From positions 5,001 through 69,000 of the forward strand of contig JAFLBK010000001.1 in assembly GCA_017303335.1 (NCBI GenBank): DNA of 64,000 nucleotides, in the 5' to 3' direction. Positions 17,447 to 19,741 of the stretch are shown here, piece after piece. The notes beneath the pieces are model-generated. The model saw only the letters and a program-made list of their open reading frames with translations. It was not told where the DNA came from and made no database searches. The stretch's first letter is position 1; every line of letters starts with the position of its first letter. This DNA comes from Chitinophagales bacterium (lineage in GTDB: Bacteria; Bacteroidota; Bacteroidia; Chitinophagales; Chitinophagaceae). The position numbers and the translations under genes were made by a program.

Positions 17447-18457
17447 TTACGCGATGAGTTTGGCGAAATGATGCACGGTACGTACCAGTTGGGATACATA
17501 GCTCATTTCATTATCGTACCAGCTCACGGTTTTCACCAGTTGTTTGTCGCCTGTTTTGATCACGCGGGTCTGGGTAGCGTCGAAAAGGCTTCCGAAACTG
17601 ATGCCGATCACGTCGCTGCTCACGATCTCGTCTTCGGTATACCCGAAACTTTCGTTGCTGGCGGCCTTCATGGCGGCGTTCACTTCTTCGGCGGTGGTAT
17701 CCTTAGCGAGGATGCTGTACAGTTCGGTTACTGAACCGGTGATGGTTGGTACACGCTGGGCGCCTCCATCGAGTTTGCCTTTCAGGTTGGGCAACACCAG
17801 GCCGATGGCTTTGGCTGCGCCGGTACTGTTGGGAACAATATTGGCCGCGGCGGCACGTGCCCTGCGCAGGTCGCCTTTTGCATGCGGCGCATCGAGGGTG
17901 TTCTGATCGTTGGTATAGGCGTGGATGGTACTCATCAGGCCGGTAACGATACCGAATTTTTCGTCGAGTACCTTGGCCATGGGCGCCAGGCAGTTGGTGG
18001 TACAGCTTGCGCAGCTGATGATGGTTTCGCTTCCGTCGAGTATCGCATGATTTACATTGAACACAACAGTCTTGAGATCACCGGTCGCCGGGGCGGAGAT
18101 AACCACGCGTTTGGCTCCCGCGGCCAGGTGCGCTTCCGCCTTGGCTTTATCGGTGAAGAAGCCGGTACTTTCGATCACCACGTCCACATCATGAGTACCC
18201 CAGGGAATCTGGGCCGGATCTTTCTGAGCGTATACTTTCACTTCATGGCCATTTACCACGATCGCGTTTTCCGTAGAAGTCACATTCTGACCAAAGCGGC
18301 CCTGTGCGCTGTCGTATTTTAACAGATGTGCCAGTACGGCCGGACTGGTGAGGTCGTTGATGGCAACAACATCGATACCCTCCATATTATAGATCTGGCG
18401 GAAAACCAAGCGGCCGATGCGGCCAAAACCGTTGATTGCAACTTTTACTGTACTCAT
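17447..18457 (-). CDS. gap: glyceraldehyde-3-phosphate dehydrogenase, type I
   Basis: 336 residues, NAD-dependent oxidation of glyceraldehyde 3-phosphate. Rossmann start [18 protein letters not shown]; catalytic Cys152 in [12 protein letters not shown]; His in the [11 protein letters not shown] segment; substrate-site [13 protein letters not shown]-terminal [14 protein letters not shown]. Asp-Leu after VVAIND suggests NAD rather than NADP preference. It is upstream of pgk on the same strand. The region 18458-18628 upstream holds no other gene. Confidence 0.97.
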
Positions 18458-18677: not shown

Positions 18678-18752
18678 GCCGCGTTGGTCAAGGGGTTAAG
18701 ACGCCTCCCTTTCACGGAGGAATCACGGGTTCGAATCCCGTACGTGGTACCA
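18678..18752 (+). tRNA. tRNA-Glu (anticodon TTC)
   Basis: Cloverleaf by eye: acceptor GCCGCGT / ACGTGGT with two G-U pairs, D arm starting GGTCAAGGGGTTAAGAC, anticodon stem CCTCC / GGAGG around loop CTTTCAC with TTC, T arm CGGG TTCGAAT CCCG, discriminator A. CCA follows in the DNA (18750-18752), so the 3' end may be encoded. The body is 18678-18749. Confidence 0.95.
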
Positions 18753-18753
18753 A

Positions 18754-18785
18754 GAAAGCCTCTCTGACCGAGAGGCTTTCTTTAT
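18754..18785 (+). terminator. terminator of tRNA-Glu (first copy)
   Basis: 11-bp stem GAAAGCCTCTC / GAGAGGCTTTC with loop TGACC (18754-18780), followed by TTTATTTT. Directly after the tRNA CCA. Confidence 0.88.
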
Positions 18786-18791
18786 TTTAGA

Positions 18792-19064
18792 ATGGTTACC
18801 GTATATGTATTACAAAGTATCAAGGATGCCGCAACCTATGTTGGTATTGCGCTAGATGCAGAAAAAAGACTCAAGGAGCATAACTCCGGAAAAAACCGAT
18901 ACACGAAAGGTCACCTACCCTGGCAGATAATCTACACTGAGCAACAACCGGATTGGGCCAGCGCCAGAAAGAGGGAAAAATACCTTAAGTCGACTGCCGG
19001 CAAAAATTGGTTACGAAAATTTCTAGCTCAAAAAGATGGAGACAAGGGTTCCCTGCCTGCTTGA
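18792..19064 (+). CDS. GIY-YIG (URI-type) nuclease family protein
   Basis: A 90-residue single-domain GIY-YIG protein. VYVLQS and TYVGIA are the two halves of the GIY-YIG signature; Arg in EKRLKEHNSG, Lys-Gly-His in TKGHLPWQI and Glu in ASARKREKYLKS complete the usual catalytic set. No added DNA-binding domain is present. The last codons (GSLPA) are written by a palindrome at 19049-19081. The gene sits between two copies of the tRNA-Glu 3' end and terminator, so the upstream terminator may limit its expression. Such small stand-alone genes often sit beside tRNA genes in Bacteroidota; a homing-type origin is my inference. Confidence 0.88.
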   Translation: MVTVYVLQSIKDAATYVGIALDAEKRLKEHNSGKNRYTKGHLPWQIIYTEQQPDWASARKREKYLKSTAGKNWLRKFLAQKDGDKGSLPA

Positions 19065-19126
19065 CGCAGTCAGGCAGGGAATCCCGTACGTGGTACCAAA
19101 AAAGCCTCTCTGACCGAGAGGCTTTT
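19046..19126 (+). repeat. partial tRNA-Glu 3' copy interrupted by a palindrome, plus second terminator
   Basis: GGGTTC (19046-19051) and GAATCCCGTACGTGGTACCA (19079-19098) are the two halves of the tRNA T arm and 3' end, separated by 27 bases. The 27-base insert forms most of a hairpin with arms TTCCCTGCCTG and CAGGCAGGGAA (19049-19081). The second terminator (19100-19124) has the same stem AGCCTCTC / GAGAGGCT and ends in TTTTTT. Confidence 0.75.
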
Positions 19127-19150
19127 TTATGCCGTCACAACACTGCCTGT

Positions 19151-19741
19151 TTACTTACCGGTGTCGAATTTCCGGAAGATTGTTTTCACACTCCGGTCGA
19201 TCTCGTTACTGCTGATTCGGCTGCTGCTCAACTCACTGGTGGTCCAGCCCTGCCATACCGTCTTATCGGTACTGTTATCGATGAGTGTAATGGTGATCGT
19301 GCCTTCCCGTACCGTGGTGGAATAGGTATCATATCCCATGAAACGGGAGGGGAAATAGTACGTAATAACCCGGCCGCTGTACCGGTTATAGTAGCTGCGT
19401 GTATACGGCTGAGAGTAAACCGGGTCTTGCTGCTCTTTCCGATTCCGCTCCACAAGCAACTCAGAACTCACGAGTACATCCGGGTTGGCACTCACTTCCC
19501 GCCAGCCATTTTTCTGCAATTGCTCATTCACGGCGTTCCGGATATTCGTTTCAGTAAGTTCTGTACGGCGGTTTTTCTTTCTGCCTTTTTCTTCCGGCTT
19601 ATCGATCCAGGCATACGTGCGGTACTTACTGAAGTCTGCAGATTTATCTTTTTCGATATGGGCCGTTCCGGCGCAACCGGACAGTACAAGCAAAGCGGAA
19701 ACAGCCACCGTGCTTACCCATTTAACTGATGCTGGTAACAT
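19151..19741 (-). CDS. DUF4136 lipoprotein
   Basis: 196 residues; signal peptide with lipobox LVLSGC, so lipidation at that Cys. The DUF4136 domain is recognisable: DFSKYRTYAWID, NAVNEQLQKNGW, DVLVSSELLVE and a C-terminal TITITLIDNSTDKTVWQGWT followed by IDRSVKTIFRKF. Function unknown; the family is common in Bacteroidota and Proteobacteria envelopes. An unusually strong AAAGGAGGACCT ribosome site precedes the ATG at 19739-19741. Convergent with the tRNA/GIY-YIG locus. Confidence 0.88.
   Translation of the reverse strand: MLPASVKWVSTVAVSALLVLSGCAGTAHIEKDKSADFSKYRTYAWIDKPEEKGRKKNRRTELTETNIRNAVNEQLQKNGWREVSANPDVLVSSELLVERNRKEQQDPVYSQPYTRSYYNRYSGRVITYYFPSRFMGYDTYSTTVREGTITITLIDNSTDKTVWQGWTTSELSSSRISSNEIDRSVKTIFRKFDTGK

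Follow-up and report, generated by a model that had tools for sequence, protein, structure and literature searches.

A minimal GIY-YIG nuclease element bound to tRNA genes in Bacteroidota

Behind the tRNA-Glu gene of a 64,000-nt stretch of a Chitinophagales genome (the window, by which we mean the whole stretch of DNA that was analysed) lies an element of about 350 bp in all, in which a GIY-YIG nuclease gene stands between two copies of the tRNA 3' end. Elements of this kind recur across Bacteroidota, patchily and each bound to a tRNA isoacceptor; of this we are nearly certain. On balance we favour the reading that the nuclease moves the element by cutting the tRNA gene, which would make these elements a selfish, tRNA-targeted family that operates without an integrase.

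The tRNA-Glu element and its nuclease

The host gene is an intact tRNA-Glu (TTC) at 18678-18752 (+), the sole tRNA that ARAGORN finds in the window. Next to it is a first intrinsic terminator (18752-18782, +), found by inverted-repeat search as a 13-bp perfect inverted repeat, and the nuclease reading frame follows at 18792-19064 (+). After the gene comes a partial tRNA-Glu copy (19046-19098, +), a direct repeat that sequence comparison resolves as tRNA positions 50-75 split by a palindrome. A second terminator (19098-19128, +), recognized by its inverted repeat and by alignment with the relative L311, adjoins this copy. The flanks are a GAPDH gene on the left (17447-18457, -), kept beside tRNA-Glu in empty and occupied relatives, and on the right a lipoprotein-like gene (19151-19741, -), which we take to be a DUF4136 gene and which is kept beside the empty site in G008.

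The preliminary description had reported that the tRNA 3' end and terminator at 18733-18780 are repeated at 19079-19126 with about two differences, and this holds: identity is 48/50 between 18733-18782 and 19079-19128. The latter segment is the best plus-strand match to the 50-mer 18733-18782, and 12 random 50-mers of the window reach 26-33/50. As to extent, the second copy is present as described and is longer than was described, beginning at 19046 and containing a 27-nt T-loop palindrome that had been overlooked. This palindrome, CCTGCCTGCTTGACGCAGTCAGGCAGG (19052-19078, +), identified as an inverted repeat and by sequence comparison, is inserted between TTC and GAA (GGGTTC^GAATCCC) with no tRNA bases lost; the inverted repeat around it reaches 19049-19081. 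The stop and last codons of the nuclease (...GSLPA*) fall in the tRNA copy and palindrome (19046-19064). Gene and palindrome tag thus overlap, and L095 shows the same overlap.

The only recognizable gene between the direct repeats is, as had been noted, a GIY-YIG nuclease of 90 residues (Pfam PF01541, E = 1e-14), and an integrase gene is absent there. The gap between tRNA-Glu and the nuclease ATG is 39 nt, mostly terminator hairpin, which would leave no space for a promoter of the nuclease's own; judging by this spacing, transcription of the gene probably starts at the tRNA promoter. A motif, AGTTCTT, occurs just before the nuclease start, or at the same place in nuclease-less remnants, in several lineages (e.g. 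L054, L062, L097, L290, L300).

The residues Y5, Y16, G18, R26 and E62, corresponding to the GIY-YIG catalytic Y-YxG, Arg and Glu, are invariant in alignments. The AlphaFold model of the protein (mean pLDDT 88) consists of a single GIY-YIG domain of about 83 ordered residues with a low-confidence tail, and a separate DNA-binding domain, which we sought in this predicted structure, is absent. The closest proteins by sequence are UPF0213 and SLX1. Among solved structures, Slx1 and UPF0213 come closest, followed by the catalytic domain of I-TevI, with best E-values of only 2.5e-3, a modest fold match. Neither NCBIfam nor PHROGs has a family for the window protein, and a search for a phage vehicle of the nuclease found none, only relatives of 50% identity or less. 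The median dN/dS of 0.14 (53 pairs) places the nuclease under purifying selection; truncated copies occur at L122, L110 and L119.

Distribution over tRNA genes, isoacceptors and species

Searches of the same genome and of individual loci within it show seven GIY-YIG domains. Three belong to proteins of 450-600 residues and have no tRNA close by; the other four are stand-alone genes, every one of them immediately behind a tRNA that is read in the same direction (Met, Asp, Pro-GGG, Glu), and each is followed by a partial, palindrome-tagged copy of its own tRNA. By simple arithmetic (39 tRNAs, 4.0 Mb), a random gene has a chance of about 0.15% of lying within 300 bp downstream of a same-strand tRNA. 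Tagged partial copies also occur without a nuclease: some seven units, each about 120 bp long, at Pro-TGG (L016), four of about 155 bp at Cys (L037), two at Ser-GCT (L016), and single ones at Arg-CCT, Pro-CGG and Asn. Such nuclease-less, palindrome-tagged arrays with terminators (L016, L037, L020, L022, L011) are likely decayed or non-autonomous units. At Asp (L017) and Arg-CCG (L030), 5' partial tRNA copies with palindromes are stacked upstream of the intact gene, and the tRNA promoter is kept.

We surveyed the genomes of the genus (77 of 78 had a GIY-YIG match) together with 30 loci across the phylum, comparing 113 proteins; four low-scoring loci outside the tree were omitted from the linkage counts. 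A sister clade of 26 proteins (SH-aLRT 98) has no member near a tRNA or tRNA fragment (0/26). In the clade of the window's nuclease, at least 80 of the 87 genes are tied to tRNA genes or fragments: 65 adjoin an intact tRNA on the same strand and none on the opposite strand, and the 22 with no intact tRNA in reach have tRNA fragments in 15 cases and a contig edge in 14. Nearly all tRNA-linked nuclease genes have flanking direct repeats. A scan for GIY-YIG genes at tRNAs with duplicated ends had been proposed; it shows the architecture at about 20 isoacceptors. Members of the nuclease clade seldom occur apart from tRNA sequence, contrary to what would be expected had the gene existed equally without flanking repeats.

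Two observations on the survey stand apart from these counts. About 17 of the 26 loci in the clade never found at tRNAs are flanked by direct copies of dispersed repeats, e.g. CTGTCATTCCGAG...GAGGAATCT (among them L057, L058, L074, L092, L096, L173, L174, L177, L182, L188 and L190), possibly a parallel nuclease-repeat system. Also, many draft contigs end in or near elements, as at L053, L056, L063, L067, L075, L080, L086, L089, L100 and L119, so that the elements probably break short-read assemblies and are under-counted.

The nuclease lineages sort by isoacceptor. With 20 labels on 65 proteins, the protein tree requires 27 isoacceptor changes, against 49.8 (45-54) in 200 shuffles. When a tRNA-Met lineage alignment was run against 84,980 species and its best 80 relatives were taken by protein similarity alone, tRNA-Met(CAT) stood immediately before the nuclease gene in 62 cases and after it in one; the rest were mostly at contig edges or tRNA-Met-like fragments, with L245 at tRNA-Asn. 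Many Bacteroidota orders are represented among these 80, along with records labelled Cloacimonadota, Marinimicrobia, Balneolia and KSB1, which are metagenome bins whose names carry some risk. Taxonomy is poorly reflected in the Met-lineage tree (42 changes versus 52.5 shuffled, range 46-58; 77 columns, low resolution), which is suggestive of horizontal spread, and we rest no claim on it.

Occupied and empty versions of the same site were found at two positions. Between tRNA-Met and era the distance is 52-171 bp in 16 empty species, and where the site is occupied (six species) it is 470-624 bp. At these occupied sites the two Met copies are offset by 348-374 bp, or by 492 in the window's genome, where there is an extra fragment. 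Two further species retain the tagged Met copy and lack the nuclease. At the GAPDH-tRNA-Glu site, two species are occupied and 15 are empty (two of these on short contigs). Thus the empty tRNA-Glu that had been sought exists, even in the nearest relative, whose GAPDH is 97% identical and whose site is clean; G008 is likewise empty, and GAPDH, the lipoprotein-like gene and DapA are all kept around its site. The window's terminator 2 aligns better than terminator 1 with the empty-site terminator of the nearest relative (L311). At the Met-era site, the question of which terminator is native has a clear answer in only two of six species. In the other occupied GAPDH-tRNA-Glu species (L095) the nuclease is 44% identical, while a closer protein (52%, L129) lies at a tRNA-Glu without GAPDH, after two nuclease-less units; both loci have a T-loop palindrome of the same site and type.

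Architecture, copies and palindromes

Two arrangements are found. In type A, that of the window, the order is intact tRNA, terminator, nuclease, tagged 3' copy; in type B it is tagged 5' copy, nuclease, intact tRNA (L062 at Asp, L070 at Leu, L083 and L113 at Arg). Both retain one whole tRNA and place the nuclease within the tRNA transcription unit. The earlier proposal that the element regenerates the end of the tRNA therefore suits 3' copies such as the window's and not those elements that duplicate the 5' part, before the intact tRNA; moreover, in sequence the copy goes with the tRNA of its own host and not with a foreign tRNA. The last 24 nt of the 3' copy match the host's own tRNA at a mean of 23.1/24 and the same anticodon elsewhere at 14.7 (a comparison in which initiator and elongator Met are mixed). 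The copy is closer to its own tRNA at 66 of 69 loci and closer to the average of the others at none; only two loci have a discordant copy. The 3' copies are therefore either made from the resident tRNA or kept converted to it. Whole units can also be tandem: L065 has five near-identical copies, each of 365 bp, and there are two or three at L071, L080, L104, L107, L116, L180 and L247.

The palindrome abuts tRNA sequence at 91 of 125 loci, and its position is characteristic of the lineage. At 41 tRNA-Met loci a palindrome of 15-16 nt, typically TCCGYCnnnnGRCGGA, stands in place of the same 10 nt (positions 37-46, initiator numbering). These 10 nt are the core of TCATAACCCnnAGGTC, a block common to initiator and elongator tRNA-Met, and the Met lineage is found at both. 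At Lys, Arg-TCT, Arg-ACG and Val, 17 nt comprising the whole anticodon arm are replaced, and at Pro-TGG 17 nt of the T arm. The Asp palindrome occupies site 38|50 in type A and type B alike. Palindromes in Leu and in Arg of type B are inserted with 0-2 nt lost, and at Glu the T-loop insertion removes none. Since each lineage's position is kept across orders and architectures, these sequences suggest that the palindrome sits where the nuclease recognizes its target, and that this site is inactivated in the copy.

Away from tRNAs, the genome of the window holds 50 palindromes of the form CCCGCC..GGCGGG and 17 of the form CCTGCCT..AGGCAGG; the reversed patterns occur 1 and 0 times. The same palindromes are seen in other dispersed repeats (GAGATTGCTTC, palindrome, TCGCAATGACG) and in terminators, as at L141, L145 and others of L140-L169 in this genome. 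A parent copy was looked for beside the dispersed palindromes; apart from tRNA loci and local tandem repeats, hardly any turned up.

How the element may move, and what it resembles

The preliminary description took the locus for a minimal element that inserts at a tRNA without any integrase and may owe its mobility to the nuclease, and this interpretation of the sequences has passed all the comparative tests run. In the mechanism we propose, the nuclease would be translated from read-through of the tRNA transcript and would make or promote a break in the cognate tRNA gene. Repair by recombination with an occupied copy, the tRNA sequence providing homology arms, would install the nuclease gene while keeping one intact tRNA, and the palindrome in the second copy would both mark and destroy the recognition site. 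Breaks at the repeats would also drive tandem amplification, convert the copies to the sequence of the host tRNA, and let units decay into nuclease-less palindrome arrays. Candidates for how a lineage fits its tRNA are sequence, hairpin structure, or mere recombination homology.

Several points argue against such a homing reading. A protein that has no DNA-binding domain and is closer to the structure-specific Slx1/UPF0213 than to the homing nuclease I-TevI offers no ready explanation of site specificity; the presumed target is still present in the intact tRNA; and the palindrome families occur away from tRNAs as well. Local duplication or gene conversion would account for copies so close to the resident tRNA just as well as transfer between species would. 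A possible objection is thus that the nuclease acts on hairpins or cruciforms, whether of the palindrome or of the tRNA-gene arms, rather than on a specific sequence; its nicks would provoke tandem duplication, the units would spread by ordinary homologous recombination, and the isoacceptor lock would reflect tRNA homology only. The kinship to Slx1 and UPF0213, the single domain, the palindromes abutting tRNA sequence and the identical tandem arrays agree with this. The constancy of palindrome position and type within a lineage, across orders and in two architectures, does not, and neither do the tRNA-Met sites, which share exactly the replaced core and so look like sequence recognition. We consider this objection unlikely to be correct, though it deserves to be taken seriously.

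A role in the service of the host, in which the nuclease adjusts tRNA gene dosage or processes tRNA, e.g. through amplification under tRNA-targeting stress, would accord with purifying selection and with the adaptive tRNA-gene amplification by phage SegB (PMC13096335). We find it improbable given the patchy occupancy, with most sites empty, and given that amplification does not raise tRNA dosage, since the units concerned usually hold a broken tRNA fragment and no more.

It could also be argued that the unit is placed at tRNA 3' ends by a tyrosine integrase supplied in trans, the nuclease being cargo and the direct repeats attachment sites. Direct repeats at tRNA 3' ends, as seen here, are typical of integrase targets; yet no integrase lies between the repeats, the type B loci (L062, L070, L083, L113) duplicate the tRNA 5' part instead, the repeats extend through the terminator and carry palindromes, and it is the nuclease lineage, not a mix of cargo, that tracks the isoacceptor. 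This explanation, very improbable in our judgement, is rejected. Least credible of all is the view that tRNA ends were simply duplicated in tandem and caught an immobile GIY-YIG gene between them by accident, a view which the nuclease-less partial-copy arrays of this genome might suggest and which is refuted as a general account by the consistent gene and tag (the window's second copy being itself a palindrome-tagged fragment, not a plain tandem remnant), the linkage of the one clade and not its sister to tRNAs, the isoacceptor-sorted tree, the conserved palindrome sites and the purifying selection.

Returning to the nuclease-driven reading, we compared the elements with known systems. tRNA genes are among the commonest landing sites of bacterial mobile DNA, usually via integrases; tRNA-targeting integrative elements with a tyrosine integrase insert there with a direct repeat of the 3' end. 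The present elements differ in having no integrase, a total of about 350 bp, and 5'-side duplications too. At Escherichia coli tyrT, tandem repeats with the tRNA 3' end lie downstream of the tRNA, at one locus and with no GIY-YIG gene. RAYT is a tyrosine transposase, not a GIY-YIG protein, and REPs are not known to be tied to tRNA genes; here a Y1/HUH transposase is absent, GIY-YIG being the element's only protein. There is a likeness to REP/REPIN and RAYT (TnpA-REP) in the short dispersed palindromes linked to a nuclease gene (PMC2817692, PMC3116915).

Mitochondrial mobile ORFs with duplicated gene ends, known from Allomyces atp6 and Glomus atp6, atp9, cox2 and nad3 (PMC3630166), resemble our elements in that an endonuclease ORF at a gene's 3' end stands between two copies of that end, with one functional gene remaining. 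The inserted end there is foreign and unlike the native one, whereas here both copies follow the host tRNA. Our elements differ further in having a tRNA as their target, in carrying an added palindrome and in forming tandem arrays of units. SegB of phages T4 and T6 is a free-standing GIY-YIG homing endonuclease of a tRNA gene region, where it cuts and drives tandem amplification (PMC2988022, PMC13096335). Like the elements described here, it is an intron-free GIY-YIG nuclease beside tRNA genes, and it favours the inheritance of the tRNA region as well as the recombination-based amplification of segments in tandem. It is, however, phage-borne, with one enzyme per tRNA cluster, while our elements are chromosomal and encode single-domain proteins of 80-90 aa; a palindrome-tagged tRNA copy and per-isoacceptor lineages are not reported for SegB (PMC2988022, PMC13096335). 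The occupied and empty alleles of one site expected of a SegB-type homing endonuclease are present (Met-era, GAPDH-tRNA-Glu), and the joining of a nuclease domain to a DNA-binding domain is absent. Since features of each were looked for in the elements and found to be lacking, we assign them neither to the SegB type nor to the mitochondrial mobile ORFs. A description of a tRNA-bound GIY-YIG element family was sought in the open-access literature and none was found. The recurrent arrangement and the per-tRNA enzyme lineages suggest an undescribed selfish family that homes into tRNA genes without an integrase. More tentatively, and with less than even confidence, we propose a distinct integrase-free class of mobile DNA in which each minimal GIY-YIG nuclease recognizes one tRNA gene (or its hairpin form), the homology arms are copied from the host tRNA, the palindrome tags the recognition site, and spread and amplification have taken place in Bacteroidota and neighbouring phyla.

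If this is true, the family would represent a new way to exploit tRNA genes, through a 90-residue nuclease with one lineage per isoacceptor, and would be a source of small nucleases that may differ in DNA specificity. The idea lends itself to direct test, as about twenty natural lineages and matched empty sites are available. SegB-like amplification of tRNA loci would be predicted outside phages, and the elements would explain the partial tRNA copies, the palindrome arrays and possibly many of the contig breaks in Bacteroidota genomes.
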